A stretch of DNA of 64,000 nucleotides. It comes from Heliocidaris erythrogramma (taxonomy: Eukaryota; Echinodermata; Echinoidea; Camarodonta; Echinometridae). The stretch spans positions 57,128,258 through 57,192,257 of the forward strand of contig CM046854.1 in the NCBI GenBank assembly GCA_025617745.1, read 5' to 3'. The position numbers were made by a program, and so were the translations under genes. The notes beneath the pieces were generated by a model. The model searched no databases and was not told where the DNA came from. It saw only the letters and a list, made by a program, of their open reading frames with translations. This document shows, piece by piece, positions 19,401 to 64,000 of the stretch. Each line of letters begins with the position of its first letter. The first letter of the stretch is position 1.

Positions 19401-22400
19401 TCAAACCAAGCACTTCCCCAGGGAAGTTCCCCGCTTAAGTTCAAAGCTACACTGGGAAAGGTCAGGTCTGAAAGGAACAAGAGAAAAGTCCCCATCGAAA
19501 AGCTGAAGAACTTCCCCAGGTAACTTCTCCACCTACCGAGGTGGAGAACTTATCCAGGGAAATACGTCAGAGATCAGGGGAGCGTTTCATCAAATGTTTT
19601 GTCAGTGACTTTTACCAACAAATTGGCTCTTAGCCAATCAGATGCAAGGATTTCAGTAGCTTATAACAGTTGTCGGTAAAAATCACTGACAAAATGCTTG
19701 ATGAAATGCTCCCCAATTGTCACTTCCGGCCGGTCACACTATGATCCCACGTCGTCGCATCAACTTTTATTTGAAAGCCCAGCACAAGCACTCGTGCCCT
19801 GAATCTGACCAGGGGGTTGTTTCATAAAGCTGTTCGTAAAGTTACGAATGACTTTACGAACGACTGGAACATGTTCTTGGGTGCTATACTAATCAGATTC
19901 TCAATCATTTAGCACAAGAACTGATCACCAGTCGTGCGTAAAGTCGTGCGTAACTTACGAACAGCTTTATGAAACACCCCCCAGGGGAGCATTTCATCAA
20001 GCGTTTTGTCAGTGATTTTTTTACCGACAACTGTTATAAGCTACTGAAATCCTTACATCTGGGGAGCATTTCATCAAGTGTTTTTGTCAGTGATTTTGAC
20101 CGACAAATTTGTTTCAGCCAATCAGATGCAAGGATTTCAGTAACTTATAAACAGTAGTCTGTAAAAATCACTGACAAAACACTTGATGAAATGCTCCCCT
20201 GATTGGCTGAGAGCAAATTTGTCAGTAAAAACCACTGACAAAACGCTAGATGAAACGTTCCCCTGACCAAGTGAACGTGGAATTTGTCAGCAATGGAACT
20301 TCACTGGGAAAGTTGGCTGGGAAACTGATTTGAAAGGAGTATAAGTTTGCTTTGAGTTTTCCATGTATGAATGCATTTACTAATATGTCGACGAGTGTAT
20401 GCACTTGTATCTTATACTTTAGAGTGAAATTTTTGGTATTTAAACATTTGAGATCTTTGATAAATGTAATATTCAAAGCTGATTTTTATGCCTCCGCCCA
20501 CCGAAGTTGGGTGGTTGGAGGCATTATTTTAATATAGTATATCATTATTTAACCCAAACATACAGAGCAAAAAATTATAAAGTGATGTGTCCTTTTTAAA
20601 AGCTATGATTACCATTGATATTGCATCTCTTCCAACCATTTCTTTTTCTTCTTCTGTATGACAGGGTCATTACCGTTATGCCCAAGCCTTCTTTGAGCTG
20701 AAGGATATTGACCGTGCGCTGCGTGAGAACAAGCGAGGGCAGAAGCTATGCGATGATGGCGGGTCACAGACCGGCGACCTGCAGAGACAGGCAACCATGT
20801 TCAATGATGAGAAGAAAAGACAGGTCAGTCTCAACAGCAAGAAGAACGAGGTCCCGGATCTTGTGAGCGAATCGGAGTCGGACAGTGATAGCGATTTAGT
20901 AAGTCTCTTAAATCACTGAAGAGATTCATCTTGGTGATGTAATGTTGAGAAATAATTTTTACCCGTTTTCGTAAGCTTTCACTTGCTGTTCTGTAAGCTC
21001 CTTTTGATGCTTGTTGTAGCTGCTGATGGTACTGTTGTTGATACAATACTTATTACAGAAATCAGGGCCCTGTTTCACAAAACTTGTTATCAATAACACC
21101 TTGCTCATTTCTATGACAAATTCGCTCTCAGCCAATCAGATTCAAGGATTTCAGTGTCTCATGACAATTATTGTAACTTGTTATAAGTTTTTATGAAAAT
21201 GGGCCCTGAAGAAGCTTGCAGACCAGCAAGTGAAAGCTTATCAAAATGGGAAAGTTTTACTGATGCCTAAAATAAAAAAGTAACCAACTCAACATCAAAT
21301 CAGTAACTGCTTGCCATGAGCCATAGTAGAGTTAATTTTGATCTACGCATGCATTCATTTATGCAAGGAGAAGGAAAGGGAATGAGAAGCTGACCAAACA
21401 TTAGATTGTATCAATGACACTGGATGATTGGTTAATCAGAGTTGGTTTCAGATAGAGTTGAATGGAGAATGGTATTGAGAAGACTGAGGATGCAACAGTC
21501 ATGGGTTGGAGTCTATCACAGCCCTTATGTCTTTGAGCGAGGCACTTTAGGTAGCTCAGTGAAATGTGGTGGCGCGTAAAAACACGGGAAAGACGCATTA
21601 GTCAAGATAAAGATTCTATTGTCGCGCCCACAGGAGGTGAAGGCGAGACTAAGGGATCCAAATGGCGTCCGTCCGTCGTCCGTCCGTCACAAACGTTAAA
21701 GTTTACCTGCAAGACTCTCTTATGATGCATTACTTGGCAACTGTTACTGCATTGGCAGCCACACTTGGGTGATAGAAGCCATAGGGGCATCTCCATGTTA
21801 TTGTGTTGTCGGAGGTCACATGATGTCAAAGGTCATTTGAGGTCATATGTTAAAGTTTACCTGCAAGACTCTCTTTTGTGAAATAACTTCACATCAGTTG
21901 CTTGGATTACAACCTAACTTGGGTCATATTTGCACTGAGGCTACCTTCACGTTATGTTGCCTTTGAATGTCACATGATATGGTCAAAGGTCATTTGAGGC
22001 TATACATTAAAGTTTACCTGCAAGACTCTCTTGTGACAAATAGTATTTTGTGAATAGTCCTTCTCATTAATGGGATATTACATTCTGTGGCAGATACCCA
22101 GAGATACAATTCTTCTGCGTGGTAACGGAAATCACGATATTTCCAGTTTTCGCAAGTGGGCGAGACACAATCTTGCTAATGCCTTGTTTTATAGAGGCTG
22201 AACGAAAATATTAGGATGTAGAATTAGTATTTACCTCTTTGAACACAAACAAAATAATATGAAAACTTTTATCGAGGTACGTCTGATGCTAATTTTAGAA
22301 GCCAAACAAAACTAGTAATTTTGCTCTTTGCGTCTTTGCTGCGTCTTTATGCGCCATTGCGTTTCACTACGCTACCTTACTTATTTCTTCTCTCCACCCT

Positions 22401-25400
22401 GGTGTGCAGTGGGTGCCTGGTAGGAAGCCCACGTCATTCATTTGATCCGCAAGATTGTGACAAGGTGGAATGCTCCAGTGAAGTGGTGATTGTGCAATGT
22501 AATGTGCAGAATTTGTAATTGAATCTTCCGACTGGGGTAATAATACTCTGTAAGTGCTTTACTCAGTTGTTTATCTCTGGTAAGACGTGAAAAGGCAGTT
22601 ATTATTGTCATTATTGACATTATTGATGGGTTAAAATTTTCATGAATTATACTTTCCTTTATTCTAGGATCGCAGGAAGTCCAAAAAGCCGAGCAAGCTC
22701 CCAGATATCACCCGTGATCTTCAGAAGAGCAAACAGGACTGGGAGAAGAAGAAACACGAAGGGTTAAGGAAGAAGAAAGAAGAGGAAGAGAGGAAGATTA
22801 GAGAAGCATTGGAGAAAAAGCGGAAGGAACAGGAGGAGAAGGAGCGGAGACGCCTAGAAGAGAAGGAGAGGAAACGTAGGGAACAAGAACTCCGTGAATT
22901 TGAGATGATCAGAAAATTTTCGGAGGAAGAGCATAGGAGGCAAGAAGAGAAGATCAAACGGAAAGCTGAGAGGGCGGCGGAGAAGAAACTTAAAGAGGCA
23001 GAAAAGCAAGCTCAAGACCGAACGAGGAGAGAAGAGAAGGAAAGACTTGCCAAGGAGAAGGAGAAGCGGGCAAAGAGGGAAACTGAGATAGCAAGACAAC
23101 AGAGAGAACAGATGAGGAGGGAAACTGAGATAGCAATGCAACAGAAAGCGCAGATGAGGAGGGAAAATGTAAGTTCAAAGGATGGTTTTTGTAGTCAGTC
23201 CTATTAGTTTGTATGCAACATAGAACTATATATTAGTTACTATTGTATTCAGGAGCATTTTACCCAGGAGAGGAATGCTAAAGCGAAGAGATGATTATGT
23301 ATGTTACATAAATATAGTAGTTGCTAAATTATATTCAGGAGTGTTGGCCAAGGAGAATGCTATAGAGAAGAGTATTGCAGATGGTTTCCTCAAGTTATCT
23401 TGTATGAATATATTATTTACTATTGTATTCAGGAACATTTCACCAAGAAGAGGAATGCCATAGAGAAGTGTCTTGCAGACATTTCCCTTGATTTAATATA
23501 TATTATCTCAAAGGAATATATTATTTACTATTGTATCCAGGACAATTTGACCAAGAATGGGAATGCCATAGAGAAGTGTCTAGCAGACATTTCCCTTGAG
23601 TTATATCTCATATGAATATATTATTTACTATTATATCCAGGAACGTTTGACCAAAGAGAGGAATGCTATAGAGAAATGTCTTGCAGACGGCTCCCTCGCC
23701 CTAGTCAGCGGTCAATGTCGCCAGGCTATCATTCAGTATGACAAGGCAGCAGAACTCATGAAGGCTACCAATAACGAGGTGGGTAAACTTCAGAAGCTTA
23801 ACTTGGATTGTTAATCCATCGTTAAGCCTCTACTGCTGTGGTGCTGGAGGCACTATACGAGTTGTGCATCTTTCCGTCTGTCTGTGCAAGTTAGATCCAT
23901 GTCATCGTTTTGAGCAAAAACAAGTAGCTATTTATTTGAAATTTTATTTTGAATTTGCCAGAATTTGTACCTTGTAGATCGCTAATTGGTGATTGAAATA
24001 ATGGGAATGCAAGTGTAATGGGTTCGAGACTGCACAGCTTTTGACGGTGTTTCATCAAGTGTCTTGTCAGTGATTTTTACTGACAAATTTGCTCTCAGCC
24101 AATCAGATGCAAGGATTTCAGGAGCTTATAATAGTTGGCGGTAAAAATCACTGGCAAAACGCTTGATGTAATGCCCCCATTATGTCCTTAAAGGAAGGAT
24201 TGTATCTACATTTTTCCTCTACTCCCATGTGCTACATGAATATTTCTTATAACAGGGGAGCGTTTCATCAAGCGTTTTGTTAGTGATTTTTACCGAGAAC
24301 TGTTATAGGCTACTGAAATCCTTGCACCTGATTGGCTGAGCGCTAATTTGTCAGTAAAAATCACCAACAAGACACTTGATGAAATGCCCCCCAGGAGTTA
24401 CCTAACTTCAACCCTGGACCCCACACTACACCCAACTTTTTTGTAGAATCACACAATATTCTGCCAAATGTAGCACAGGTTTTGTACACATCCTTTAGAT
24501 GCTGCCTATGAAATTTTGAGGTTACAAGCTTTTTAACTCCTTTGTAAGAAATGAATATCATGCACCTACATGTATGATCTGGGCCCCGCTTCATAAAACT
24601 TGCACCTGCCACATTTCTATGACAAATTTGCTCTCGGCCAATCAGACTCAAGGATTTCAGTAGCTTATAACAGTTATTGCAACTTGTTAATGTTAACAAG
24701 TTTTATGAAACAGTGCCCTGAACTTCCATTTTCTTTCTCTCTTTTCTGTATTGCCTTCTATGTTCAGTACGGTGGAATTCGTGAGGCAGACTACATTGTG
24801 TTCTTGTATGCTCAAGCTACAGCTTACCTCAAGTCTGGGATACCTTCGGTAAGGACAACATTATTTTCAGAATCCTGATTCTTGCATGCAGTTGTAAATA
24901 TGGCACTGCCACTAAGGGTGGCTTAGCAAAACCTAGTGGCATGAAAAGACGCGCTCGGAACACAAAATGCATATTGTTGAAAATCATGATTTATTGCATT
25001 TAGACTGTGGAAACGGGTCACTAATCCATAGACCAGGGTGGTGTTTCATAAAGCTGTTCGTAAAGTTACAAATTAATTTAGAAACGACTGGAATATGTAC
25101 TTTGGTGCTATACTAATCAGATTCTCAATCATTTAGCACAAGAACATATCACCAGTTGTAACTTATGAACAGCTTTACAGGTAAAAATACCTGTACTACC
25201 TTCATTAGGCTTAATAATTACTCAAAACTGTCATAAGATATGTCAAAATTAATTCACTACTGTCGTTAACAATTTTGTTGGTGGTTTGTGTTCCAGATGC
25301 GTCTTTTTGTGCCACTTCGTTTCCCTAGCTACCTCAATTTCTTCAACAGCTCATTCGTGCATACCAACCTACTAGAAAGCCTCGGTCCGCATTCAAAAAT

Positions 25401-28400
25401 CTCTTCGTCGCTGGAAAATTTTCTATGGAAGGATGTAGTCAGACCAAAAATTGCTCAAAAACATGATTTTATGTACAATTTCAATACAAGATGTGTTTTC
25501 AGCCAAAATTTAGAAATCTATGAATATGTTTGCTTTTACTGATTTAAATTAATTTATTTTATGCCGTTTATGATCACCAAAGTTCATACAAAAAACAATG
25601 AAAAGCAAAATGTAAACAAAAAAAAATACATAAGAAATGTAAAGTACAATGACGTACATAAGAAATCAAGTTTGATATCAAATTTTCTTTCAAGTAAATT
25701 TGCTAAGATTAATGGAAAGAGTGTCTAGACCGAAAATCAGCATTTCTTGAGCTTTATATAATGATTTAGAGCAAAATTCTCCTTTCATGCTAGTCCACCT
25801 ACTGGACTGTATTGAATAATCGATCCACGCAGCAAGCAGACCAAGCGGACGTTGAGGGCGAGTGACTTACAGAAATTTGTCGATCCTCAATACAGTCCAG
25901 CCAAACCTGCCATCTCCCCCGAATTTCAGGGGGAACTCTCACCGTTGGGCTCCGCCTTTACGATTGTCAAAGCTCCGCTGATTAGCTTATTGCAAATGTC
26001 AATCAAGCTGAATGCAAATCGTGGCCGATTAAGTTATAGTCTAAATTCAAGGCTTTACAATTTATTATAAGTTTAATCCAAAATAGATTTTGACATTATT
26101 TCTTTAAATTAGTTTAAAAACCGCAGTGAATATTGAATATATATTTGAATGAATCAAATCCATGTTGAATTTAAGTTTGTAGCTCCATTGTAGACATTTT
26201 GAATACAAAACAAATAAAATCTCGCATGTACGTAAGACTATAAATGTTACGCAACCTTAACCGCTAGCGTACCACTGACATACGCGTACGGCCACTGCAC
26301 ACATGCACACACGTGCATTGTTTTCTTTCGCTAACATCGCGATCCCGGGCGCATGTGATCAGCTGTTTCTCGCAATGCATATTCATTACGGAGCGGTTAC
26401 GTATGAATATCAATTAGATGATGTCATACTACATTATCTCACTCGTTCTGGCAGGGGTACTCTGGACGATTTTTTTCGGGGAGTACAGATTAGTGGAGTC
26501 GCACGATCAGCGGCTTTGCGCGGTGAGTGGAGTATGTGAATCAATGGCGTGTGAGTGTGTGGGGGAAGCGGACGATTAAGAATTAAAATCGGCCAGTATC
26601 TGGACTACTTTCATGCATAAATTAGCATAATTCATGTGAAATTATTTCGGAGCATATAACTACTAAACTATACAGTTTTGTACATTGTGGACAACATGCA
26701 TATTTTCGGCGCGATCACACGTTTGACGGTCAAGATCTCAGGGGGGGGGGCAGAATCCCGAATCCCGAATCCCCCCGGCTGTTGGCATAGCCCAAATTTT
26801 AGGGTTAAGGGCATCTTGAAAACTTGTTTATTTTCAAACTGAAATCATCATTATTGTCAATTTTTTTTCTCACTTTTCTGGTTACTTTGTGTTATTATCA
26901 GCCATTTAAAAATTGTTGCTAGTTATTTCACACCTATTGTTCTACAACATCTGTTTTCTTGGCCTTAAAATATTTTCTTTTTTTTTCATATTCACTGAAA
27001 AAGTCAAGGGAAAATTTATGTTGTATTATTGTTTATACAGTACCGCCCTGAAGAGATGCTCAACACGCAACATGCAAAACACGCAAACCTGTTTCACAAA
27101 AAAAAAATACCGTGTTCGTCTACCGCAGACACGGACCCGATAACATCGTGTTTCGTGTAAGGGTCTACACCATGTTATGCTGCCTTTCCGGGCCCCCTCC
27201 TTAATCCGTAAACCGTGTTCTACTACCTCCCCCCGTTCTTAATCTCTATTCCGTGTTCTCCGACCTTTCTCCGTCCTTAGCTTGACGGCCGGGCAGCGGC
27301 GCGCTACGAACCAGTTTCGAATTCTGTGGCCGATACACAGAGTGCAGTGACTAATACAAATATATACTGTGTGAATTAATACGGGCGTAAACTTTACAAA
27401 CTCGTGCATACAGTATTCAACATTAACAGTCGCTCCATACTCGCACGTGGCATCTCATAACTGGTAACTCAGAGCATGATGTGACACTGTCACAATTTCC
27501 TGAAAAGTTGAGCAAAGAAGTAACATATTACTGAAATCCGATTAAGAGTACATGAGCGATATATCCACAATGATATCCTTCGGTATATTCATGCGAAAGT
27601 GAAAAGCAAGGCAGTGCGTGGGAAACATTAACAAAATATTTAGTGCAGTGCGCGCGATCAACATTAATTCCATTCATAAAATTGGGCTTGTGACCTCATT
27701 TTGTTAATCACAAGTCATGATACGCGCAAAAATATGCCAGCCAGACCATGAAGGTTTGCCGGTTTTTTTTTTAACTTTCACACCGCGGCGACATTGGGCG
27801 AAAGGCGCTTAGTATGTAAACAAGGAGTTGTCTGATAACTCCTTGGCATAAACAGATCGAATTTCAAAAGGGAAACCATGGTGTTAAAGGGTGAAATTAC
27901 GGTCGGGCAGAGAGAAAATGTTGGCTTGATATTTTTTTATGAAGATGATATTGATGATAATTTTTTTGACGACATGATTATCAAGATAATGATAATTATA
28001 ATGATTATTATATGAGTTAATGACGATAATGATGATGATCATGTTCGTAAAAGGATGAAGTTACGGACGGACAGGGAAGAAAATGGCTTGATATTTTTTG
28101 ACGAATGATGAGTTTGATGATGATATTGATGATAATGGTATGATTATCAAGATAATGAGGATAAGATGATGATGATGATGATTATGATAAAGATACGATA
28201 ACGATGCTATGATGATGTCATGATGATATAATCATGTGCGTTAAAGGATGAAGTTACGGTCGGACAGGGAAGAAAAATGTGGCTTGATATTTGATGAATG
28301 GTGAGTTTGATTAAGATGATATTGATAATGATAATTGTTTTGACGATATGATTATCAAGATAATGATAAATAAGATGACGATTATGATACTACATGTATA

Positions 28401-30226
28401 ATGATGCTTTATAATCATGATAATCATGATGAATTGATAATTATATGAGTTAATGACCGTAATGATCATGATCATGTGCGTTAAAGGATTAGTTACGGTC
28501 GGACTGGGAAGAAAATGGCTTTGATATTTTTTGATGAATGATGAGTTTGATGAAAAATGATATTGATGGCGATAACTGTTTTGACGATATGGTTATCAAG
28601 ATAATGATATGATGATGATGATCTGATGATATGATAATGATGATATAATTATGATCTTGATAAATTGATATGATTATATGAGTTAATGACGATATGATAT
28701 GATTATGATGTGATTAGATGTGATGATGTGATAGTTCATTTTCATATCATCATGATACATTAATAGTTATTGAAAGATAATTTTTATAATAGCAATTCTA
28801 ATATTGACTATCGTCTAAATGCTAGTACGCTACGCATTTTGAAACGCATTTCACAAGGGGGTTCAAGAACCTTTTCTTTAAAATAAAACTAGTGACATTT
28901 ATTGATTTGATTTGATTTGAATTTATTCAGACATTATAAAAACATGTCTCGGGAAAACCAAAATAGGTTTCAACCCATACAAGTATGTTTCCCGGATATA
29001 TAAACAACAAGTAGATTCAATATATCATTAACATTATTGCACAAAGTATTATTTAAAAGATACGAATGACTACAATGATGATTGCAAGTAAAATCAATGT
29101 AGTATTGCAAGAGTAAAAATACTTTGTTGAGGTATCGAATCTGTGAAATTAACTATGTGGGTTGAGATGGTTATTTAACGCTTTTTTTTTAATGCTAAGT
29201 TTTCATATTGACTACATACTTCGGAAGTTTGTTCCAATCATTCATGGTTTTAGGATCAAATGAGTTCATAAAATGAGTTCATATAATAATCTGTTCTTGC
29301 GAAGGGTATATCCATCTTTAAGTTATGATCGTTTCTTCCAATTCGGTTCGCAGGTGTGAACCTGTCTTTATGTCCTATATCTATTAAATCATTAACAAGC
29401 TTATAATAAAACAAGTCGGAGGTATACTTTCGTCTATTGTCTAATGTATTCATACTTCACTTTTAAAAATCAAGAAAAGCAATATGAACACTTGAACCCG
29501 TTTCCAAAATACATGTATATGAGCAATCATCGATAACCTCTATACTAATTGAGTTTTGCATGATCTTTTTTCACGAAAACCATGTTGGCTATCACATAAA
29601 ATGTTATTATTGTTAAAATGTTGAAATAGGCGTTTACAGACCATTCTTTCTAAAATCTTACATGTAACTGACATTAATGATATTGGCCGGTAATTACTAG
29701 CGTCTTATTTGTTGCCTTTTTCATATATAGGACAAACATTTGCTCTGAGCCAGTCTTCTGGTAAAATGCCGGATGACAAAGACATGTTAAAAAGTTTACA
29801 AAACAGAAGGCGTAATTGGTCTGCTCCTTCTTTTAACAAACGTAGAGATATTTCATCAGGTGCCTGTGCTTTTGAAACGTCTACACAGTATACTTTTCAA
29901 CAATTTTAAAACCTCAGTCTCTGCACATTGAATATCCTTCATAATAGGTGCTTTACTGCATGCTGTATTCAGGTATTGAGAGGCTTACATGTACGTGATC
30001 GTTAAAAGCTTGATTAAATTGTACATTGAAAGCATCAGCCTTTTATCGATCTTCTGTTATATAAGCATACCATTGGCCTTTAAGCATTCAACCGTACTAC
30101 GATCACATTTTGTAGACTTGATAAAACTCCAAAACAATTTCGGGTTATGTTTTAAGCTTTTATACAAATAATTCTTTAAAAAAGACACGTATATAGTTAG
30201 ATTTAGTTTTCTTCTTCCCAGTAAGT

Positions 30227-30263
<37 letters not shown>

Positions 30264-33200
30264 GAGAATGAAAAATTCCCACACCCCCCCCCCCCAAAAA
30301 AAGATCTTGTTTTCAGTTTCGGTTATATCAACTTGCATTTTTTTTAATTCTAAATGATCTAATAATATGAGCGTGTATGCGTGTGTATGTGTGTACTGGC
30401 AATGTGTAACAGTAGACTGTAGACTCTGTGTGTGTGTGTGTGTGTGTGTGACTTTGACTGGGGGTGAAGACTCGCACGTGCTTTTAACTGAAAGAGGTGT
30501 GTAGAGCTCGCCATTTTCGCCAGAAATACTACGTGTGGAGATTGTCGACAAAGTGCCTCTGTACGATCGCGCTGTCAAAATTTCCAAGGGCTACTCGTGC
30601 AGAATTACTTTGACCATGGATATACGTGTACTCGTTATCCATGCTTCGACGAAACTTTTCTAGAAGAAACTAATACTAGTGATCCAAACCTATAATCCCC
30701 TCTAATCCCTGTTACACTCGGCGATGTATCACGCCTCCCCTTCCCCTGGACAGGAAGTTCTTTCAAATCGGGACACTTTGATGGATTATAGACAATAGCT
30801 GCAACACTACCCTAGCCTCATGATATCACCACCCTGCTCTTCCTCGACAGAAAGGTTCTTACAAGTCTGAAATTACTGATGGATTAATGGACCATAATAG
30901 CCAGACATATGCTATAAACACAGTCCGCATATCATATTCAAAGGAACAAATATCATCTCTCTTCTCATCGTCTCATACTTTGCATTTCTGAGTACTTTTG
31001 TTTGTAAAGAAACATTTCAATAAATAATTTCATTTTCTTATCCCCGCTTTTCAGACAAAAATCTGTGTTCGCACTCCCAAATGAACAAAGTTAGATTGTT
31101 ATTAGAAGACAATGGTTCTGCTGAAAAGGAAAATTTTGAGGTTAACCAAATCATTATATGAGTACTTTTTTATGCACTCAAATATTCAAAGTTAGAATTA
31201 ACAAGAAAATATTGTGACGTATAGTTTCGACATTGACATTGACGGAATGTCGGTCACATTTGAAATGTCTTAAAAAATAAATAAATATTAGGTCGGAATA
31301 ATGATTGCGTTCCGACATCAATTTTCTAACATTTTCTCAACACCCTACATTGGCAGTGCACAATGGTGACCCGATATCAGTTTCGAGATGTTTTGGTCTG
31401 AATTGTGACATCCGCCCATCATCAAATTTCTTACCATGCACCCTCGCAATTTTCTCTCTCCCCTGCAGGCGCGGATCCAGGATTTCTTAGGGGGCCCCAA
31501 ATTTTAAATCATGTGAGCTACATATTTCTACAGCAATGGCGACAAATTGCGTATCTGACGCTCGATCTCGGGGGGGGGGGGGGGGGGGGGGCGGGGGTGC
31601 AAAAGCATATAAAGGGCTTTCACTTCATTTAAAGTCCATACAGTTCATATTATAATGACTAAAGTTTCTAAATTCCGAAAGAAAATATTTACAATTTGAC
31701 ACCTATGATTTCGAGGGGCTACTTATTCATCTCTTGTTCGGTAATAACTAACGTCTGTTTCTGATGGTGTCATTATGGTCATGTACGCTATAACTTCCTC
31801 GAAATCCGCCCTAAACACTGAGTTTCGTGAATTCTTATTAGCATACGTCGGCTCTTGCAGGAAGCCAGAAGCCTTACTAAGGGCTCATTACTGTGGCAAA
31901 TCATTACTCCTCGGCGACAGTCGGCGAAGATATCAAACAGTAATGTATCTGAAAAGACTGAAATGGCATATACTGTAAATCAAATTTCAAAAGGAACAGC
32001 ACTGATATTTTTTGTGCAAACCAGTCATTAATTGTCGCACGAGATAATAAAGACAATATCGGACACAGTATGGTATTATTAAAAAAATAGACTTTATTGA
32101 TATTATAGTCCTAATTGATATGCTCTATATGCATGATATCTATTAAGGAAATCGCACCTGAAATTGCATCATGTGCACTATAAGTTCCAAACACTTTCTT
32201 TCATATAAGTACAAAAAAGTTCCACTGGCTAGTATGCTGTATGCATACTATTTCATAAGAGATATGACGCTCTCACTTGATTTGATACGCCTTTATTGAA
32301 CGATGTTCCAGATGACAGCTAATAGCTGATACATGATGAATTATAAAAGCTTAATATACATAGGACAAGAATGATAAAAGATACACAGCAAAAGCAATAT
32401 GCCTTGTAATCCAGCCAAAAGTGGGAGTTATAAGGCTGAGGGAGACTCAGAGAACCCTAGATCGAGTGTGAGGCACGTCTTTTAGATGGTGATATTAAAG
32501 GTCGGTCCCAGACGTAAATAATCATATCTGATTGATACACGTGACACGTCTGTAAAAAAAACAATTCAACATTTCAAAATAGATAAATAAACAATGTGAG
32601 GTCATTCAACTGCATCAAACGACTAGGAAGATAATGTGATTAAATTTTGAAGTAGGTAAAAACTGAAGGGTCACAGAGGCCAAGTTATTATGAAATTATA
32701 TCGCGATATCTTCAAAAGAAAAAAAAAGGGCGGAGGCATAATTTAATAGGCAGTCGCATTTATCTTGTTGATATATACTATACAAAGAACTAGGCGTTGT
32801 GGCGTGCGCCTGTAATCCAGCAAATAGTGAAGGTTATAAACCGATTCGACTCGGAGGACATTGTACCAGGGAAAAAATTACACGAGGGCTAAAGGCAATT
32901 CCCCCCCCCCCCAAAAAAAAAAAAAAAAATGTAAACAAAGAAATAGCCCTTGCAAGTTGCAAAAGAGCCCCCATAAATTGCTATTAGGTTCAATACAATA
33001 TGTTTGTTTAGTGCGGTCTTACAAAGTTACATTTTATAACATACCATTTTCTTAACACACAATCAAAATGAAAGACATACCGATATTACCGGTATAGGCA
33101 TTTCATCAGAAATATAAGATTATACGTACCGTTTCGTCTGAAACCCGTTCCTGGATGGATTAAATGCTTGAAATTTCTTTTTCAACGCCTGTCACTTGAT

Positions 33201-36200
33201 GAAGCGCCCACGTGACGTAAACCGACCGTCGTCTACAGAGTCACCCCAGCCCGATAATGAAGTGAAAAGTATGGAAGTGTATCCTACTATACCGGACACT
33301 TTTCAGTAATTCAGTCATATCAAACAAAATATTTATCAAACTCACCCAATGAATAGACAACATCCTACAGAAAATAAAGAATTAGATGTAAAGTTGCAAA
33401 TCCAAACCAATGTTCGATACGATAAACATTCGATTGCACCCCTGTCCCCCTTTTTTTGTTCTTTCTCTGTTTTATCACTTTTCTCTCAGACTCCTTTTCT
33501 TTTTCATTTCCCTTTCCTTTCTCTCTCTCTCTCCCATCTGAACCAGCGTACCTTGTTCGAGGGAAAACCCGATCTTCCATTCTTCTCCCCTTTTCTTTCC
33601 TTCTTTTTATTTTATTTCCTTCTTTCTCTTTTCTTTCCACCCCTTTCCCGTCTCTCTCTCTCTCTCTCTCTCTCTATCGTTTTGGTGGTGGGGGGATTTT
33701 TCCCCTTATAGAAATATCTTTATTAAAAATTGCTTTTGACTTTGCAATACTTTATAAACACATTAATAACAACAAAAAAATGCACATAATAGAATTGACA
33801 CACAAACCATTTTAGTTATACAGCACATATAGCAAAACTAGTTTACAGCAAAATTATGTTCACCCATCTGTTATCAAATGAGATGAAATTGTTATTCTTA
33901 AATTTTAACATATAGATATTCAGAATGATATTGCCTTTGATAAGCATTTAAATTACTGTATTGATAGTAAGCTTCTTCTTTTTTTCATTTCCAGGAAACT
34001 TACATCCCTTCTGTTCTTTTCTTATTCCTCCGCGTTTTCCTTCCCTTTTTCTTTTTCTACTCCCTCTTTTTTCCCCTTTCTCTCATCTATCCCTTTTTCT
34101 TCCTTTTCCCTTTTTATTGGGGGGGGGGGGGGGGGGGGTGGAACCATGGAAGGCCCTTTCGGCGCCCGGCATCCTTCCCATTTTCATTTTATCTTTCTAT
34201 TTTATTCCTTTTCTCTCCTCTCCCCCTTTCCCTTCTTTTCCTTCTCTCTTTCCCTCTTTGTTCTTTCTAATTTCCTTCCTGCTCGCTCTCTTCCTCTCTC
34301 TCTCTCTTTGCGAGGGGGGGGGGGGGGGGGGAGGGGAAGCAACAGACCCCCTTTGCAAGGGGGCCTGGGAGGCAAGGCCCTTTCAGTCCCTGGACTCTCC
34401 CCCTTTTTCTTCCTCTTTCATTTCATTTTTTTCTTTTCCCATTCTCTCCTCTTTCCCTTCCCCTTCCTTCCCTCTTTTTGGCCGGGAGGGGGAGGGGGAG
34501 GGGGAGGTCCTTTCGGTCCCCCGGCCTCCGCGATTCTTCCTCTTTTAATTTTTTTCTTCCTTTTTCACTTCCCTCTCCTCCCTCCCTTTCTCTTCTTTTC
34601 CTTCTCTCCCTCTTTTTTCTTCTTTCTACTTTCCTTCCTGCTCTCTCTCTCTTTTTATGGGGGGGGGGGGGGGGGAGGCAACAGGCAACACTACACCCTG
34701 GGAGGTAAGGCCCTTTCGGCCCGGACTTTTTTGCCTTCTTTTTTCTTCCCCCCCCCCCCCTTCCTTCACTCTTTTTGGGCGCGGGGGGAGGCAAGACCCT
34801 TTCGGCCCCGGCCTCTTTCTTCCCCTTTCCAAATATTCTTCTTCTTTTCCTTTTCTCTCTTCTCTCCCTTTCCCTTATTTTCCTTCTCTCTTTATCTATT
34901 TCCCTCTTTTTTGGGGCGGGGGGGGGGGGGGGGGGGGGACCCGGGCCCGCTGCTCCCCTTATATTTCAATGTTCACTGATAACAAAATCATAAAGTGGTA
35001 CACAAGGGGGAGGGGAACATTATTACCCACGCCCTCCCCCGACAGACATGACAAGTGAAATAATAATTGACTGATTGTCTGCGTCAATCATGAATCGTTC
35101 AGTTAAAAGAAACTGTAACCATATTTTTTGATTTTGAATAAATTTGCATAATTAATGAATTTCAAAATTGCATATGTTTGTTGACATCAGTGTAACCCAT
35201 TTTCCTATTGATTCTGTTTTTAAGAGATTGTGCTTATAAAACCCAATCAATTTTGGTTATTTTGTGGAATGAAATATAATCTGGTAAAATGCGACATCAG
35301 AAATACATGCATCCAAAAATTGTTCTGACAGAATCATATAAAGAAATACAATTAAGAGTAGAATTGACCTTAAAATGGTCTTGTGGTTGTCATTATCAAC
35401 ATAAACAATACTTGAATGATTCTACGAAATGATTTCACAACTAAAGCTAAAGCAGAGTAGGCCTAAAGGCAAAAAAACTATTCCACGCACTGTTTGTTTT
35501 CTTTAATTATTTTTGTTTGCACACATGTCACCTATAATTAGTCACCTGTGGACAATACAGTCCTTAATGGAGTTGTTATAGCTCATAAGGCCGGGATAAA
35601 ATATTTGAAAGACTTTCATTATTGGACTTAGCTCAGTTTCTACATTTATACAGTTACATTGTGCATGTAGAGGGACTCGGGCAATGAGAGAGAGAGAGAG
35701 AGCTGGGCGCGATGCGAGCGCGATGACGTAATGCCTGCATGGTAACAGTAAATTAACCAGGTTGGCCAATCTTTGACATACCGCCATATTGGATTCGTGC
35801 TCCGCGCCGATTTCCGTTACCTCGTATTTTTTATTTCATTCGTATTTTCACTATTAGTCTACGATTACCTTGCTCAACTTTTGATTTTGTTTTGATGGCT
35901 TCCTTACTGTCTTCTGACAAAATTAGTGTGAAGAATTTACAAGATTTTCTTCGAGAAAGAGATTATTATACCGTAGGATACAACAAGCAGAGACTTGTTA
36001 TCTATCAGAATCAATCAATGGGAAAGTTATTTTGAATATACTTTTTTCTCGTGATCTTATAGGGTTCATAACAAAAGAAATAAGAGATTTAAAAGTTAGT
36101 TACAATATTCTCCAAACGCATTTTGTGGTACTTCGCTTTCGTCAATATTGGCTTCATTTTAGCGGGTGTCGCTGTTACACGTCCCTTAACAGCAGTGTTT

Positions 36201-39200
36201 TCCCATTTTCCGACCTTTGTTTGAACCGTAAGTATGCTCGAAATATTGAAGTATATAAATAGATATCCAAACTTTATTTTAATAATCTGTTCAAATATTA
36301 ATGCAATAAACAGTTCAATAGCGAACAAAGGGTAGTAGTTGCACAGTGAAACACGGTGTACAATAGCAGATTCGCACCACCGGTCACCGTTGTTTGTCCA
36401 ACCCTCCGATTACGTAATCGGGTTTAATTGTCTGTGCATACATTAGTCAGTACGAAACTGGCCTATTGACGTATGAAAGCGCAATAGCCAAATTTAGCTC
36501 TCAGGCCAGCGACACACTGGGTCTCAGACCGTCAACAACGCAACGCTTATATAATGTAGACATGGTTTATTGGATATCTGACGGAATTTCCAAGTACAGC
36601 ACATTTTTATTTCCCAAAGAATCGCAAAATAGATCAACACAAGAACCCCTCTACATGATGAAAATCGAAGCTTCTCGTTCCCATTGCAGTTGTAAAATTA
36701 GGCCTACTGTACTATACTACTAGTAGTATGTAGGCCTAAAGAACTTCAGGCTAGTATTACCGCATAAACAAAATATACGGAGGAAAACTTTCTATTGATG
36801 GCATTAAGAATCTATTTCCAATATATTTTGTAATTTGTTGCTACTTCATTTTAATTAAGGAAGTTTAGAACTCTGTTGAAGAGAAACTTCTCCAAGTCCA
36901 AGTACTAGTTTTTAGGGGAAAAATATAGATCTATACAGAACACCCCTCAACATGAAAATCGACGCTTCTCGACGAAAGTTGATTGCATACTAGTACTGGC
37001 CCAAGTCATGCAGTGTACAATTACTGTGTCATGTTCAGACTGACGATCACCACATAAACAAAATAAATGAAGAAAAGCTTTTTCATGATATGGCAGTAAG
37101 AATCTATTTCGGTCCCGCCCGATAACAAAAATGGACAAGACCTTCCCGCAAAAAGACGAAAATCTGACGCGTCCGGTACCCTCAAAGATCAGTCGTATAA
37201 ACATTTCCAAATCAACCCCCCCCCCCCCCCCCCCCCCCCGACAGTGGTTTTGAAAATCAAGATTTTGTATGCATGTTCATCCGTCTCGTAATGTACATTA
37301 TCACATTCAGGTGACGAGAAACAAAATTCATAAATTACTTGTACTTGTGTTTTATTTCGCTCCGCAAAGCCACCGCCCTTTGATGGTGAAACCGACATTT
37401 TGCGCTATTGTAAACATGTCGATCATTCTGGTCGTGTGAATGGTATATGGTGACCTCTTTTCGTCAGCGCAAGGAGTTATTGGTCAGCGTGCCTCTTCCT
37501 TTCACATCTATGATCTACCGCACACGAATAAAAATGTAATGTCTTATTACTCCACACACGATTATCGATTTTTCTCTCTCTCCTAAATCACGCACTTGTA
37601 AGTTGTATGATATAATCTCGGCTGAGTTCACTTTCTCTCTGCTATAGGAAAACAGTCTGTGTTTCCGCTCTATTTACTGCAGTTTTAAAATAAAAATCAT
37701 AACTGGCAAACTGCCTCTTGTAAAATTAACGCCCTGACAATTCTTTCTCTCCTTCTAAATCACGTACATGTATCAAAATGTCGAAAGTTCTTCTTAATTC
37801 TGTTTTGAAAGCTAAATTTCATTTCTGTATACTCTTTCCTTTTTACTGGATTAAAAGCGATGGGAACAAAAAAGGCTAATGAGGGTATTATTTACCCTGC
37901 TCTAATTTTTTTTAATGTGTATCTATGGATTTCTGAAAGCTAAATTTCTTTTCTTTTCCCCATGTCTGCATGTTACGGAGGTATAGAATCCGCCCCTAAT
38001 GCTATGGTCAGACGGACAGATACGCGCGATACGCATGTCTGCGGATGTGCATCCGTAAAAATCCGTAGAAATCCGCAGCAATCCGTATCATGCGTATCAT
38101 CCGTAAGTGCATCCGTAAAAATCCGTGGGAGTGCGCAGGAATCGAGGTCTTCCGCGAAAAAGTTTTGAAAATCTCAAAATTATTTTAAATTTCCCGCGCA
38201 AGGTCTTTTGCGCAGAATTTAGGTAGAATTTGCGTATTGTTCCGTATCATGCGTATTGATCCGTATCTTTGCGTATTTTTGCGTAAAACGTCCGTATCCA
38301 TCCGTAACCTAATCCGCAGGATCCGCAGACATACGCAGATCCGCAGCGTGAATTTTGAAAATCTCAAAATTCTGAAAATTTTCATTTTGAAAATCTCAAA
38401 ATTCTGCTGCGGATGAAATATACGTAAGCATCCGCAAAATATACGTTATCCATACATAAACTACGTAACTCATACGTATCGTCCGTAAGTCATCCGTAAG
38501 TCGTCCGTGACATGTGTCAGCGGTTGGCAGCGGATGGGCTCATCAACAGGTTTTACCCGTAACATCCGTAATTCATACGTAACATCCGTAACTAATCCGT
38601 ATCGTCCGCAGAATATAGGTAACTTTTGCTCAAATTTGCGTTATTTGGGGGTAAAAATTACGCATTTTCATTATCCAAATATACGCAGGCATCCGCAGGT
38701 CCGTAACATGGCCGTGTGACTGTAGCATTAACGAAGCACCTCCTCAGGCCCCTGCACGAGACGATTATTGATTTTTTTCCCCCCTCTCTCTCCCTATGTC
38801 CTTCTAAATCACGCGTTTGTTTTATAATCTCGACACATGTCCATTTGTTTCTGGTAATAAAGCTAACTTTCTTTTCTTTTCGGCTGTAATAAGAGTTACA
38901 TAATTGAAACGTATCATCTTGAGTTAAACGGCGGGACGAAGATAAACTGAGCTCGAATGTCAACGCTTCTCTCCGCTCTATAGTTTACTCGAGGTTAGAA
39001 AAAAAAAATCATGCACTTGTTTCATAATCTCGAAAAAGATCCTTTTCTTTCTGGTAAAAATGCTGACTTCCTTTCTTTTCGGTTGTTTACAGAATTGGAC
39101 TCTTATCATCATCATGCTAAACAGCGGGATGAAGATAAACTGTGTCTCAGCTTGAAAGTCATCGTCTCTCTCCGATTTATTAAATGGAGCTTTAAAAAAC

Positions 39201-42200
39201 AATTCTCTCTCCAAAATCACACACCTATATCATAATTTCGAACGTTCTTCATAATTTTGTTTTGAAAGCTTACATTTACTCTCTGTGAGGACATTTGAAG
39301 AGCAATCCTTTTTAGGGGACATATCTAGTAAACGAACGTATCAAGAGTAAGAAAGTTCAGAAATTATTTTTGTTTACCCTTTCCCATTCAGAATTCCAGC
39401 TCCCCTTTACACAATAGACGTGTGTCACCTTTTCATGCCATGGTCATTAATCTATCAATGGGTTCCGATTTCTAAGAACTTCTTGTCATAAATTGGAAGG
39501 CAGGGGTTTGACCAAGGAGTTACTCCTTGGTTTGACACGTCAAGGAGGGGAGTGTAGATACTGAAAAGAAAAGATCGTTTTTGTTGTAAATAATGATCAA
39601 TAAACCATCAATGGACCTCCCGCTTTAAGAACCTCCTGTCTTTTTGAGGCGCGGGGGAGGTGGTACATAGTGAAAAGTTGTACTTTCTATAGCGCCTTTC
39701 ACCAAAATGCATTCCCTATGAGGGATATTTTTTAAATTATTTTTAATTAGGCTTTTTTCTCTCACTTCCCCCGCTCTCGCTCTCGCTTTTTTTTAGTTGG
39801 CGTTGGCGACCACCCCCACCGCACCCCCTGGCTGCGCGCCTGGTGATGATCTAAAACAACAGAGATGTCGCTCGTTTTTATCATATTAGTTAGTTACATA
39901 GTGAAATTGAAATGACAAGAAGTTTTCTCTTACTTTTATCTCCAAATATTTCTTAAGCAACATAGTGGTCGCGGCTTGAATTTTATAGTAGGTGTAATAG
40001 TATTTCAGAAAATTCGTTTTATAACTCATCAGGTTTGTAATTCCGAAATACAAATTTTCCATAGCGAGGGGGTTCACAATTCCAAATATGTGACGTATTT
40101 CTGTGAAGATCCGTTATTTAGAAGGTTTTTTAGGTATATTTCGAAAATGATGTAGGCTACATGTAGGATTCGTAATTACGAAAATGTAATGGAGCCCTAT
40201 GACTATGTGAATTTTAGGAATAATTTAAGAACCTTCAGAAATATAAATTTTTCATTCCCGGAATTAGAACTAAGACGCAAAATACATTTATCGAATCGAA
40301 AATTGATTTGGCGCGTAACTAATGGATAATATTCAACCCAAACAAAACATGAAGTGGATGAAGTATACAACGCAAAATATTTATATCGAATAGAAAATTG
40401 GTTCGGCGCATAAATTACAAAGAATCTACTGACCAAATGAAACAACAAATAAATTAGAACTAAGACGCAAAATACATTTATCGAATCGAAAATTGATTTG
40501 GCGCGTAACTAATGGATAATATTCAACCCAAACAAAACATGAAGTGGATGAAGTATACAACGCAAAATATTTATATCGAATAGAAAATTGGTTCGGCGCA
40601 TAAATTACAAAGAATCTACTGACCAAATGAAACAACAAATAAATTAGAACTAAGACGCAAAATACATTTATCGAATCGAAAATTGATTTGGCGCGTAACT
40701 AATGGATAATATTCAATCCAAACAAAACATGAAGTGGATGAAGTATACAACGCAAAATATTTATATCGAATAGAAAATTGGTTCGGCGCATAAATTACAA
40801 AGAATCTACTGACCAAATGAAACAACAAATACATTAGAACCAAGACGCAAAATACATTTATCGACTTGAAAATTCGTTTGGCGCATAAATTACAAAGAAT
40901 CTACTGACCAAATGAAACAACAAATAAATTAGAACTAAAACGCAAAATACATTTATCGAATCGAAAATTGATTTGGCGCGTAACTAATGGATAATATCCA
41001 ACCCAAACAAAAAATGAAGTGGATGAAGTATACAACGCAAAATATTTATATCGAATAGAAAATTGGTTCGGCGCATAAATTACAAAGAATCTACTGACCA
41101 AATGAAACAACAAATAAATTAGAACTAAGACGCAAAATACATTTATCGAATCGAAAATTGATTTGGCGCGTAACTAATGGATAATATTCAACCCAAACAA
41201 AACATGAAGTGGATGAAGTATACAACGCAAAATATTTATATCGAATAGAAAATTGGTTCGGCGCATAAATTACAAAGAATCTACTGACCAAATGAAACAA
41301 CAAATAAATTAGAACTAAGACGCAAAATACATTTATCGAATCGAAAATTGATTTGGCGCGTAACTAATGGATAATATTCAACCCAAACAAAACATGAAGT
41401 GGATGAAGTATACAACGCAAAATATTTATATCGAATAGAAAATTGGTTCGGCGCATAAATTACAAAGAATCTACTGACCAAATGAAACAACAAATACATT
41501 AGAACCAAGACGCAAAATACATTTATCGACTTGAAAATTCGTTTGGCGCATAAATTACAAAGAATCTACTGACCAAATGAAACAACAAATAAATTAGAAC
41601 TAAAACGCAAAATACATTTATCGAATCGAAAATTGATTTGGCGCGTAACTAATGGATAATATTCAACCCAAACAAAAAATGAAGTGGATGAAGTATACAA
41701 CGCAAAATATTTATATCGAATAGAAAATTGGTTTGGCGCATAAATTACAAAGAATCTACTGACCAAATGAAACAACAAATAAATTAGAACTAAGACGCAA
41801 AATACATTTATCGACTTGAAAATTGGTTCGGCGCATAAATTACAAAGATTCTACCGACCATTATGAAACAACAAATAAATTAGAACTAAGACGCAAAATA
41901 CATTTATCGAATCGAAAATTGATTTGGCGCTTAGTTCAGGGATAATATACAACCCAAATAAAACATCAAATGGATGAAGTATACAACGCAAAATATTTAT
42001 ATCGAATAGAAAATTAGTTCGGCGCACACGACGTACATGTACACTTTACACGATCACGGCAGATAATCCCTCGCTTACTCTGAGCATGGAGCTACAACGC
42101 TCTGAGGTTCGGACGCACACGATTACCCCAGATAATCCTAGTTTATTGCTTACACGAAGACACGCTGGGTACATCAACCTCAGACACGGTTTTGAAATTG

Positions 42201-45200
42201 CGTGTAAGCCTCTGAAATTTGCGTGTCTGCCGTAAGCATGTCCTCAGGGCGGTACTGTAGATTCATTGAAATGAACTTAGTATTTCTTGTGTGTACGTAA
42301 TAAAGGGAAATGGACATATGTCCTCACATTGATGTCTGGACCCATTTCTTGAAACTTATTTTCACTTACACGAGCCACAGGTCCATTACAAATTTGCTTG
42401 TAGCCAAACAATTGCAACAGTTTCAGGAGCTGATATCAGTTATTGGAACTTGTTATCGATTACAACGTTTCATGTTCATTCCATGGTTTTGTTTTGCTTT
42501 TTTTAAATTTCAGGAAATCAATGAAGCATTATCCAGGTTTGAATCTATCGCAAAGGACTTTCCCAGCATGCGTAATGGACTACCTTTCTACGGCCTGGCA
42601 ACATCGCTCTTCAAATTAAACAGGTTGGGATTCTTTTGGGGGTCTTTCCTCAATTATAGAATCTTTTTAAGGTCTTGTGCACTTACGTTGTCATATAAAA
42701 AAATATCAGGAAGGGAATTTGACCTTGTTCAGCATTTAGACAAAGGTACGTTATTAACCTTAATGTGTGTTGGGTGGTTGTGACAGCCCAAATCACATAT
42801 AATACCTTTTGTTGAATGAAAAACATGTTTCATTCTGTGAAACGCTGCTTTCTTCTTGATGAACAATGACTAAATGAACATTAATAGACACTTGTCTCAT
42901 GAAATATTATCAGTCATACAGTTTTGTCACGTTAGACACAGAATAAAGACCCATTCACATACATGTATACCATGGTAAACTGCTGGTTTTTTTTGTTGTA
43001 TTAAATGAATGGCTAGTGGGGATGCATGACGCAACAAAGATCGTACAAGTATTCACTTACTGGTTTTTTATAAGATACTGAAATGTGAAACACAGTGGCC
43101 CGTATTCTGAACTCCGGTTTAACTTAAACCATGGTCTAAATGTGTGGTTTAACTATGGGCAGCCAAATTTGACACAGATCTCTAACAGTAGATATTCAAT
43201 TTATTAGCATTTTTGGTACTTACAACTTTTAACAAATTTCTGGGAATGATAGTAGAATAGTTTTCTTGATCGTTAAAACATGAGACCAGAAACCAGTAAA
43301 CATAAGGAAAATACAGTGTGAACAAATGTTTGTCATTTTGGGCTACCCATAGTTAAACCACACATTTAGACCATGGTTTAAGTTAAACCGGAGTTCAGTA
43401 TACGGGCCATTATGTTTAAAAAAAAAAAACTTTTGTTTTAAGGTGGTTTACTGCAGCATATTCGAAAGAGCCTGAAGAGCCAAAGTCATTTATTTGAAAT
43501 CCATTGACCTGTATTCTGAACTCTGGTTTAACTTAAACCATGGTTTAAATATGTGGTTTAAAGGGATACGCCACCGGGCGGCCGTGGGCAAAGTCAGGAT
43601 TGCGTAAGCCCCATTCACTCGTACACAAAGTTTGTGCGTCGAACGTGCCCGTTGGACTAAGTGGGATTATATTTCGGCTGCACGAAGCCTGAGGTTTGCG
43701 CCCCGCGGGGCAACGGCATGATTAGGTAACGATCACGGTGCCCTCTCGCGGCATTAAAACGTCCACAATCTGCGGTTGAGTATCCCTTTAACTATGAGTA
43801 GCCAAGAATGTTAAAACTTTGTTTACACTATATGTTCCTTATGTTTACTGGATTCTGGTCTCATGCTTTAATGGTCAAGAAAACTATTGTACTTACCATT
43901 CCCAGACAGTTTTTAAAAATGCTGATAACTTGAATATCTACTGTTAAGGTTTGTGTCACATTTGGCTGCCCATAGTTAAACCACACATTTAGACCAGGTT
44001 TTAAGTTACACTGGAGTTCAGAATATGGGCCATTGTGTTCAGATTTTAAGGGTGTTACAAGAACCTGGAAAATCAAATATCTTAGAAAAATGTTAGAAAT
44101 ATATGTGGCCATGCCGTCTCTGACAAAAATAATCCAAGTAGTTTTAACTGAACTATATAAAGTTAACTTTGCATGAATTTAAGTCAAATCCGTTGGAACT
44201 GCAAAAAAATTGTTCAAGTTCTGCAAAATTTGACTTAAAAAATGGAAATGACACATGTTTTGCATAGCTTGGTTTAAAAAATTGATTTGACTTAGAGAAA
44301 GTTCGATTTATGCGACTTTGAGTTATGCAGAGTTAACTGTACACTGTATGTATACAATGTATATTTTCTACAGGTTTAGTGAAGCTCTAGATCCTATTGA
44401 AAAGAGCTTGTTCATCACAACCCACTTTGATCACACCATTCACACATGGCCTGGTACATCAACCAGTATCGAAGAAACAGAGAAAGGCAAACTGGAGGTA
44501 AGAGCAACAATTTTTCTATTTGTTTTCAATGTACGGGGGCCATGTTTTTTGTTAATAAAACTAGTCAGTTTATTCACATATTTTATGTATTACCTGATCT
44601 ACTTTTACTTCCAAGAGTAAACTTTTGAAAGGTATGTCTCTATTCATGACTTTGCTTGAAGGCAGGTTTCTGTGAAATTGTGAAAATATCATGCAATTGT
44701 ACAATTTTAATGTTACTGTAATAGGTAAAATTAAAGGGGATTATCTTCAAAAGTATTGTCATCTCCCTTTACCTTTAACTAGGGGTCACTGAAAGACCAG
44801 CACCGTTGCATTCATGAGGTGTGTGCATTAAGTTCTGTGGCTTGTTTTCCTGTACTAAGGACAAAGACCACCTGTCTATAAAGACCACAATTTCTGTTTA
44901 CCCTTGAAAACTGAAACATGTATTAAAGGAAACTGTACATAAAGACCACCTGCTCATAAAGACCGCTTTTCTTGTCTCCCTTGAGCGGTCTTTGTAGACA
45001 GGTTTCACCGCAGTAAGAAATGAAAGTTATGAACTTCTTCGTATCTTTTGAACTAGGCTGCACTGAAAGAGCTTCAGCGGTGGTGTAAGAACCCGCCCAG
45101 TCCTGACGCAATCTGCAGGTACACAGAGTGCACTTCCAAGAGAGAGATGTACCTCTCTGATCTAGACTTCAAGGGTTATATCAAGGTACAGTGCAGCGAG

Positions 45201-48200
45201 CGTTGTTACATAGACTACCATATCACATGCTGGAAGGCCATCAAGAATGAGAGTAACATTACAGGAGAGAGGGTAAGTTGCAGGAGGAGTAACATCCTAT
45301 TTGGGCATCATTGATTGATTGTTGATATAGAAGAGGAGGAAGAGAATGAGAGGGATACGTCTATCCAGAGTTTCACAATGCTGATTTATAAGAAGGGGGA
45401 GGGGGATGGGACTATGCCACGCTGAGTTTGAGAAGAGCGTCAATGCCGACTTGTGAGAAACTCTGCGTAACCTCTCCAGCGTGGGTGAACTGCATGACTG
45501 TATGCGGTCTATCACATCCTCAACTGACACGACCAATCACACAAGACTTTGAAAATCAATAGTGATTAAACAAACAATTCCTTGATCAAAGTTTTGATGG
45601 CTCCCATCCTGACTAGCTGCTTTACAAAAGAAAAAGAAAAAGGTATGAATATGCAAAGATGCATTTGCATGTTTGTAACAATCTCAAATACTGGAGAATA
45701 AATATTATTGTAATGTACTATTTACAAAGTTCAAGACTTTAGAATTTGTTCTTTACTGAAAATATATATCTCAAATTACAACTTTAATACTTAAAAAAAC
45801 GTCATTGAGGATATGGTGCAAGTATACCAGTGAATAACATAGAGAGTTATTACCTCTTGTATTAATCAGGAAAAAATAAGAATCTTGAGCTTGGTTTGAG
45901 TGAAATTCAAAGAATACTAAATCAACGTGCTAAGTCATAATTCAAGATATATTGTATCTTTCAACTTGGGAAATCAATTCTGTTTTGTAGGAGGCTTTGA
46001 AGACTAAGTGCTCCACACCTGACTGTTTAGGAACGCTGAGTATCATCAAGGTGATCGGAGCCAATGGACTTGTCAAGACAGAAGCTAAGGTTGAGAAACC
46101 TCCAAAGCCGCCCAAAGATGAAACCAAGAAGAAATCTGCCCCGTAAGAAAATAGTTAATTTTGGAATTATCGGATGATTTCTGTAGTTTAGAATTTAGAA
46201 AGAATAGGAGCTATTGCATCATGTAATGACAACTGTTTCTGTGAAAGAAATTGTGCTGTTTGGCAGTCATGTTTGACTCTTTATTAATCTACATTTGCCA
46301 CTTTCAAGTCAGGAGTAGTATGTAGGAAACCTGGTATGGATGTTATTCTTTTTGTTTCTGGCAGGAAACCTAACAAAGACCAGAAGAAAGGGAAGAAGTA
46401 CCGCAAGCCACACCACAGTGAGAGCTCCAAGGCAGAGAAGGGACAAGGGGATGCTGAAGGTCAGGCTGGACATGGTCAAACAGCAGAGGGCGCTCATGCA
46501 GCCAAGGAAGGTGGGTAAACTCATTGTGGAGCTGCCTGTGGACCTCCTAACCTCAGTACATAGAAGTCATACATGTAGCTACCAATGCTTCCTGTTTTTG
46601 AAGATTGATTCCTACTTTGAACTTTCAAACTGAAAACTTTTGTGTAAAAGCAAATAAAATACACCATTCCATATTTTTCCATTGGAGTTTTCGGATTCTT
46701 GCTGTGAAAGGTGTCGTCCACATCAAGCTGTGTATAATCAACAGATTCCAGTATGTGCACTTTTATTTCATATGTAAAATGATGTCAGAATTATTCACTC
46801 TACATTTTTTAATAATCCAAAGACCTTAAAATGACCACATTGTATCAATTTAGAGGGTACAGATGTTACATGGACACCATGAGGTTATCAGCACCTCACT
46901 TGTTTGTAATCTATAATCAAAGATCTGACAAAAAGTAATGTCGGCTTAACAAAGTTGTCTAGTGTGTTGAACTAGACACAGATATCCAGTAAACTAAACA
47001 CTTGTTCAACCATTGCCATTTTACCTATTTTGTTGCAGATGCATCTCATAAACCAGCTCATGGGGCAACCAAAGCGAGGAGTGGATCGGATGCGGGTATT
47101 GCTGCGGCCATGGACTCGACTCTGAATGATGCCTCTGGAAGCCAGAAGGTTGAGGGAGCAGAAGGAGCTGATGTGGAGGAGATTAAACCAGAGGCTACAT
47201 ACGTCCTGAAGAGGGATGAGTTTGAGGATGTTGACCAGGTAAGACGACCAATCACCAACATAAATAATCTGTGTATTGTGAAAAGGTGTGACATTATCTC
47301 CTAAAAGTACTTAAGACATTCATATGATGATGCACTGTGGTATATTGGTGAAGGCTCTTGACTCTCATACGAGAGGTCCTGGGTTTGATCCTCGCTGGGT
47401 GCTTACGTTCTTGGACATGTTTTACCCACATTTATCTTTCTCCATCTCGGTGTAAATGGGTACCTGGCAATTGCTGGGGTAATAATAATTGCAGGGCCCT
47501 CAGGAAGAACAACACTGTGAGGCTTCCCTGGGTAAACAAAACTATTTATTATTAATGACAGCCAATTTTACAAAAAGAAACTATCGAGATTTGCAGTAAT
47601 TCTACGTTGTTTCAATTACGATTTGATTTTTTTTGCGACGTGAAACTTTCGCAAGTCTCGACCACTCGCGAAATCCGCACAATTTTCTTCCATGCGAAAA
47701 TTTCTGGATTTACAGTATGAGTAAAAATGATGGGATAAGAATGATTTCCTGGTAAGAAAAGTAAAATGAAAGAGATATGATGATGTTGAATTGAATGGCT
47801 GCATCTCTCACTTAGTGAAACAGTTTTACCTTCACACTCCTGAACATTCAGTTTTTGTATATTCTTTCCTTCTCTCTCTTCCATATCCATGTACCCTCAT
47901 CCAGAAGAAGGTCAACAAAATCAAGCCTAAGAAGAGCAGAAAACCTGTGGTGGTAAGATAATGTTAGATTTTATTTATTTCGTTCATGGGAGAAGGAATT
48001 ATTCAGGATACAGATGACTTTCATGAAAAGAGAGGCTCTTTGTTCATTCTCTTGCAAATGGCGCGCTCAGTTTACATTCTAACATTTTCTTTGTTACCAG
48101 AGCTCTTTTTCAGTTTTCTAGAGCTCTGTTGGAGCTCTCCACAGCTAAATTGCTCTCTGCTGACGTGTATCTTTGCACTGGTGTGAAGAGTATTGTCCTC

Positions 48201-63707: not shown

Positions 63708-63782
63708 GTACGTGCAAGTAGAGATTAATGTTACTTGGAAACTTATTTTTTGTTGGGCGTTCCTTCTATCGTATTCTTGTTA

Positions 63783-64000
63783 AAGAGAAGGTTGAGTTCT
63801 GGGAAAGGTGTAAAATAATTTCGAAAGCTTTCTTATTCCTCTTATGTTAGTTTGGAAGAACGTCATAGTAGAAATTTCCCTGAAAAGGATTGCTCGTCAA
63901 ATTCCCTCTTATCGAAATATGACGAGAAATAGCTGAAGTGTTCGAGCCAAACACTCATGCCACATGTGTGTACAGTCCCATATACCCATTTCTGTGTGCA
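63783..64000. mobile_element. MITE family I left part, cut by the window edge
   Basis: AAGAGAAGGTTGAGTTCTGG and later CCCATTTCTGTGTGCA match the left half of 16757-17107. Confidence 0.7.

Follow-up and report, generated by a model that had tools for sequence, protein, structure and literature searches.

A 15.2-kb insert with inverted ends in an intron of TTC3 of Heliocidaris erythrogramma is probably one non-autonomous DNA transposon

A segment of 15,220 bp bounded by inverted ends (27038-42257) lies within what appears to be an intron of TTC3 in Heliocidaris erythrogramma, and raises the question of whether so long an insert is one mobile element or something assembled from unrelated parts. 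The window, the whole stretch of DNA that we analysed, comprises 64,000 nt of the forward strand of assembly GCA_025617745.1 (contig CM046854.1, 57,128,258-57,192,257), and positions are counted from its first letter. The host gene, read on the + strand, is TTC3 as judged from protein-domain matches, which agrees with the preliminary description. This assignment follows from Pfam matches on the + strand of 42300-52200, downstream of the insert: the TTC3/DZIP3 domain PF19179 at about 45057-45254 and the TTC3 winged helix PF24812 at about 51844-52080 (both with converted coordinates), with a second PF19179 match at 45991-46083 that falls below its cut-off. A coding-looking segment begins at 42514, directly after ...TTTCAG, and is separated from the right TA by 254 bases. 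No exons upstream of the insert were identified by the + strand Pfam scans, which recovered no family at E 0.01 in 5000-14900, 17000-26500 or 54100-64000. Pfam coverage of the window consisted of these three stretches together with 27038-42024 and 42300-52200.

The two borders of the insert are composed as follows.

27036..27037, no strand: left TA, putative target-site duplication (same two bases as on the right)
27038..27060, + strand: left terminal inverted repeat (sequence comparison)
27061..27256, + strand: left subterminal region with eight ACACG/CGTGT words (word count)
42026..42234, - strand: right subterminal region with eight ACACG/CGTGT words (word count)
42235..42257, - strand: right terminal inverted repeat (sequence comparison)
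42258..42259, no strand: right TA, putative target-site duplication (identical dinucleotide at the left end)

The sequence CAGTACCGCCCTGA is found exactly at 27038-27051 (+) and 42244-42257 (-), pointing inward, and an exact inverted match also holds for TACAGTACCGCCCTGA, at 27036 and 42259. When the left TACAGTACCGCCCTGAAGAGATGCT, from 27036, is set against the inverted TACAGTACCGCCCTGAGGACATGCT, ending at 42259, 23 of the 25 bases are identical (92%), TA included; the terminal inverted repeat (TIR) is about 23 bp long, with 21/23 positions matching. The exactly shared, inward-pointing ends with TA at each side that had been described previously are thus all present, and the good match claimed for about 25 bases is borne out. 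The surrounding sequence reads ...TTGTTTA on the left and GATTCATTG... on the right. TA stands on both sides of the insert and might also belong to the inverted repeat itself; any two random dinucleotides from the window would agree with a probability of 0.071. Taken alone, the TIR match exceeds chance only moderately: 2 of 60 Markov-simulated windows contained an inverted pair of equal quality, and dispersed and simple repeats supply the real window with many longer inverted pairs (165 of at least 25 nt; 755 exact 14-mer seeds).

It is the subterminal words that make the inverted-end pair convincing. With both strands counted, the 64-kb window contains ACACG 78 times, and 16 of these occurrences fall in the two end regions (8 + 8). 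The densest 235-bp stretches of the window are the two insert ends, with eight words each; the next best has four, and four was also the maximum reached in 200 simulated windows. On the left, the words are found at 27063, 27079, 27111, 27129, 27147, 27154, 27214 and 27252 (25, 41, 73, 91, 109, 116, 176 and 214 inward from the tip), and on the right at 42026, 42048, 42117, 42152, 42160, 42184, 42201 and 42222 (31, 52, 69, 93, 101, 136, 205 and 227 inward from the tip, counted from the right). From the tip inward, the left words are oriented in, in, out, in, out, out, out, out, and the right words in, in, followed by six out, so that 7/8 orientations agree and the order is nearly alike. In an open competition among 5-mers, ACACG was the top word, and only one of 2982 random place pairs, a poly-C pair, scored as high. 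The 6-mer version of this test was weaker (45/2982), because the letters adjoining the ACACG word vary. Inward of the TIR, the alignment of the two ends has a score of 39, a value reached by 1/2288 and 0/2288 window segments and by 1/2000 dinucleotide shuffles. Over roughly 120-230 bp, each end appears to be a homologous mirror image of the other. Two other words had been singled out in these regions: ACACGCAA is indeed concentrated at the ends (4 of its 6 occurrences in the window, both strands counted), but GTGTAAG is not specific to them (3 of 10). Folding of single strands of the two end regions indicated no special structure (z -0.34 and -0.38).

Our preferred reading, to which we assign a probability of about 0.7, is that 27038-42257 represents a single copy of a large DNA transposon, non-autonomous and of the cut-and-paste (DDE) type, inserted at a TA in the TTC3 intron. 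Such an element would have duplicated the TA on insertion. Its terminal repeat would be bound by a transposase that another locus of the genome supplies, and the ACACG arrays at both ends may be bound by this protein as well, either directly or via a partner protein. The two ends would then be paired, cut and re-inserted. Although unusually long, the element would belong to a general kind already known, within which it probably stands for a new family.

The interior of the insert is a mosaic, in which the following features were recognised.

27874..28707, no strand: degenerate AT-rich tandem repeats (self-comparison, e.g. 27883-28476 against 28047-28707, 73%)
29531..29710, - strand: nested RVT_1 reverse transcriptase fragment (Pfam E 7.2e-9, from residues 4105-4164)
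34043..34893, no strand: degenerate polypyrimidine/poly-G tandem repeats (self-comparison)
37997..38730, no strand: putative nested small element of 734 bp, with inverted ends TAATGCTAYRGTCASACGG (16/19 by eye)
40262..42026, no strand: satellite array of about 95-bp monomers with a 665-bp higher-order unit, its last part degenerate

A six-frame Pfam search of 27038-42024, with stops as X and a cut-off of E 0.01 or 0.1 depending on the scan, found no transposase domain; RVT_1 was the sole match, and from the sequence around it we read this fragment as being of the LINE type. The earlier remark that no transposase is visible accordingly holds for Pfam models in these six frames. Further degenerate repeats are scattered over 37745-39286 in the self-comparison, and many ATCCGTA/TGCGTA words are scattered inside the putative element at 37997-38730. 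The satellite array adjoins the right subterminal region and is identical at 790 of 795 positions at lag 665, implying that it was amplified recently or is undergoing homogenisation. Searches of the whole window returned no Rfam family at the gathering threshold and no tRNA, so the small elements inside the insert could not be named in that way. A dispersed repeat is shared at 83% between 32454-32542, in the insert, and 56004-56093, in the downstream gene region; at a guess, it is perhaps a SINE. The insert has 214 bp in common with the rest of the window, the median for 196 sliding segments being 934 bp. A value of 220 bp or less is seen in 4/196 segments; the insert accounts for two of these, and the other two start at 44001 and 44251. 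The interior is therefore not clearly foreign to the window, since segments near 44000 are equally low in common sequence.

The length of the insert may have arisen in either of two ways, and the order of events given here is what we infer. A long cargo may have been carried from the start. Alternatively, the element may have swollen after insertion through the arrival of the LINE, the small nested element, simple repeats and the satellite, in which case the satellite would have been amplified recently beside the right end. The preliminary description held that the element collects satellites; a satellite and a LINE do lie inside the insert, and they may either have been carried along or have arrived later. 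Had all 15.2 kb moved together, the insert would be a long cut-and-paste element that itself lacks any coding capacity, and might offer a route for satellite arrays into introns. If it swelled after insertion, it would be ordinary.

Two complete small elements are unlikely, because no inner partner end was found within the insert, where clusters of ACACG contain at most three words. It is also conceivable that two members of one small transposon family inserted separately, were truncated on their inner sides, and now happen to point towards one another across 15 kb of a single intron. In favour of such a history, short non-autonomous elements greatly outnumber those of 15 kb, and the window contains many copies of other dispersed repeat families. 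However, the best other site in the window for the 25-mer end has 8 mismatches, with no additional end within 7, no ACACG cluster inside the insert exceeds three words, and both copies must have lost exactly the inner end yet kept the outer TA; we consider this history unlikely. The single giant non-autonomous element of the preliminary description is partly sustained by the same observations, namely ends mirrored over 120-230 bp and an interior with neither a further end nor an ACACG cluster of more than three words.

A related proposal is a composite macrotransposon, in which two related copies surround ordinary sequence and the outer ends move the whole block. Paired elements in plants and bacteria are known to move in this way, and such an origin would explain the mosaic interior, but it predicts inner ends and none was found in the insert. 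A literature search on macrotransposons gave no paper with at least 4/5 of the terms. We hold this origin to be very improbable. Finally, the ends could be a chance inverted pair in a repeat-rich intron, as the 2 of 60 simulated windows with a pair at least as good would allow. Against this, the insert ends coincide precisely with the two densest ACACG clusters of the window, whose words resemble each other in order and orientation, and the alignment of the ends extends past the TIR, leaving coincidence with only a very slight chance of being correct.

The end sequence itself gave few leads outside the window. The 23-base end pattern had no match in viral_contigs; the 16-base end matched nine records there, each with one unpaired match, which we take as probably due to chance. 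Judged by title, none of the 16 papers containing 'CAGTACCGCC' concerned transposons; 'CAGTACCG' together with 'terminal inverted repeat' had no literature match; and 'TCAGGGCGGTAC' was found in a Cas9 paper alone. By letters or by subject, the literature searched offered no description of the insert ends, Repbase-type libraries lying outside this comparison.

We place the insert in no superfamily, because its TA and short TIR, its size and words, and its terminal core point in different ways; it would work like a non-autonomous cut-and-paste element. TIRs that start with CAGT are common in the IS630-Tc1-mariner group. The insert is like Tc1/mariner-pogo elements in its short TIR of about 23 bp, and its TA flanks, a putative duplication, would fit this group as well; pogo type 1 TIRs are given as at most 40 bp in the sections of PMC7386202 consulted. 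It is unlike them in length, 15.2 kb being about three times the upper limit of the 1.20-5.20 kb stated for pogo elements in those sections (PMC7386202), and in its subterminal word arrays, which have no counterpart in the same portion of that pogo description. It also differs in the lack of a DDE/D transposase in the six-frame Pfam search of 27038-42024.

Large size, and eight ACACG words per end in both orientations, instead liken the insert to the CACTA/TRC (CMC) elements. According to the excerpts available from PMC2613891, the soybean CACTA element Tgmt* is 20.5 kb long, lies in intron 1 of F3'H, has a 13-bp TIR and a 3-bp target duplication, and carries repeated motifs, direct and inverted, beside both TIRs. 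The animal TRC elements, as presented in parts of PMC1636069, include one of 9.2 kb in Aedes, and SmTRC1 has a 3' tandem-repeat region. The insert has TA on both sides, as compared with the 2-bp direct repeats noted there for 7/14 SmTRC1 copies and for Tribolium and Aedes elements (PMC1636069) and the 2-4 bp listed for CMC target duplications in a portion of PMC4482050. In contrast to the terminal cores CACTA (plants) and CCC (animal TRC) named in those parts of PMC1636069, the two ends of the insert begin with CAGTA, which shares 4/5 letters with CACTA, and no Transposase_21-type domain was found in it by six-frame Pfam over 27038-42024. An apparently non-autonomous element linked with satellite arrays is also known from Drosophila virilis, where the internal tandem repeats of the foldback element Tetris have given rise to satellite arrays (PMC4079207). 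The tandem repeats of Tetris lie within its TIRs, whereas the insert has a TIR of about 23 bp and its satellite is beside one end only.

Polinton/Maverick elements, which have several large ORFs including PolB and an integrase, do not agree with the insert, where RVT_1 was the sole six-frame Pfam match over 27038-42024. The target duplication of hAT elements is 8 bp, and hAT is ruled out because the 8-bp flanks of the insert, TGTTTATA and TAGATTCA, are no duplication; passages of PMC4482050 give a range of 5-8 bp for hAT. ISL2EU elements of the PHIS group share a 2-bp target duplication, putative in the insert, and are ruled out by TA and CAG in the insert as opposed to the AT duplication and the TIRs usually beginning with GG that the same passages describe (PMC4482050). 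It is tempting to speculate that the insert represents an undescribed giant family of about 15 kb, non-autonomous and TA-inserting, which would combine a pogo/Tc1-like preference for TA with CACTA-like subterminal arrays and spread satellites between introns. We regard this as distinctly doubtful.

The window also contains other repeats. A dispersed repeat with the core CTGATTGGCTGAGAGCAAATTTGTCAGT occupies about ten places or more outside the insert, in both orientations, among the matches listed (6311-6432, 13457-13578, 16606-16748, 19575-19715, 20058-20266, 21061-21209, 24039-24401, 24574-24731, 59636-59772 and 60990-61140). It is absent from the five inside-outside matches of the insert in the self-comparison; a 66% match to one of its members, again among the matches listed, lies just past the right end at 42335-42456. 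A 170-bp unit repeat with AGGTCAAAGGTCAGAGGTCACAGAGGTCA is found at 14690-15090 and 60222-60452, up to 98% alike, and a diverged copy (76%) lies inside the insert at 32624-32701. At 43052-44076, roughly 430 bp beyond the coding-looking segment that follows the insert, inverted repeats of about 60-130 bp are nested in one another, with 80-90% complementarity.
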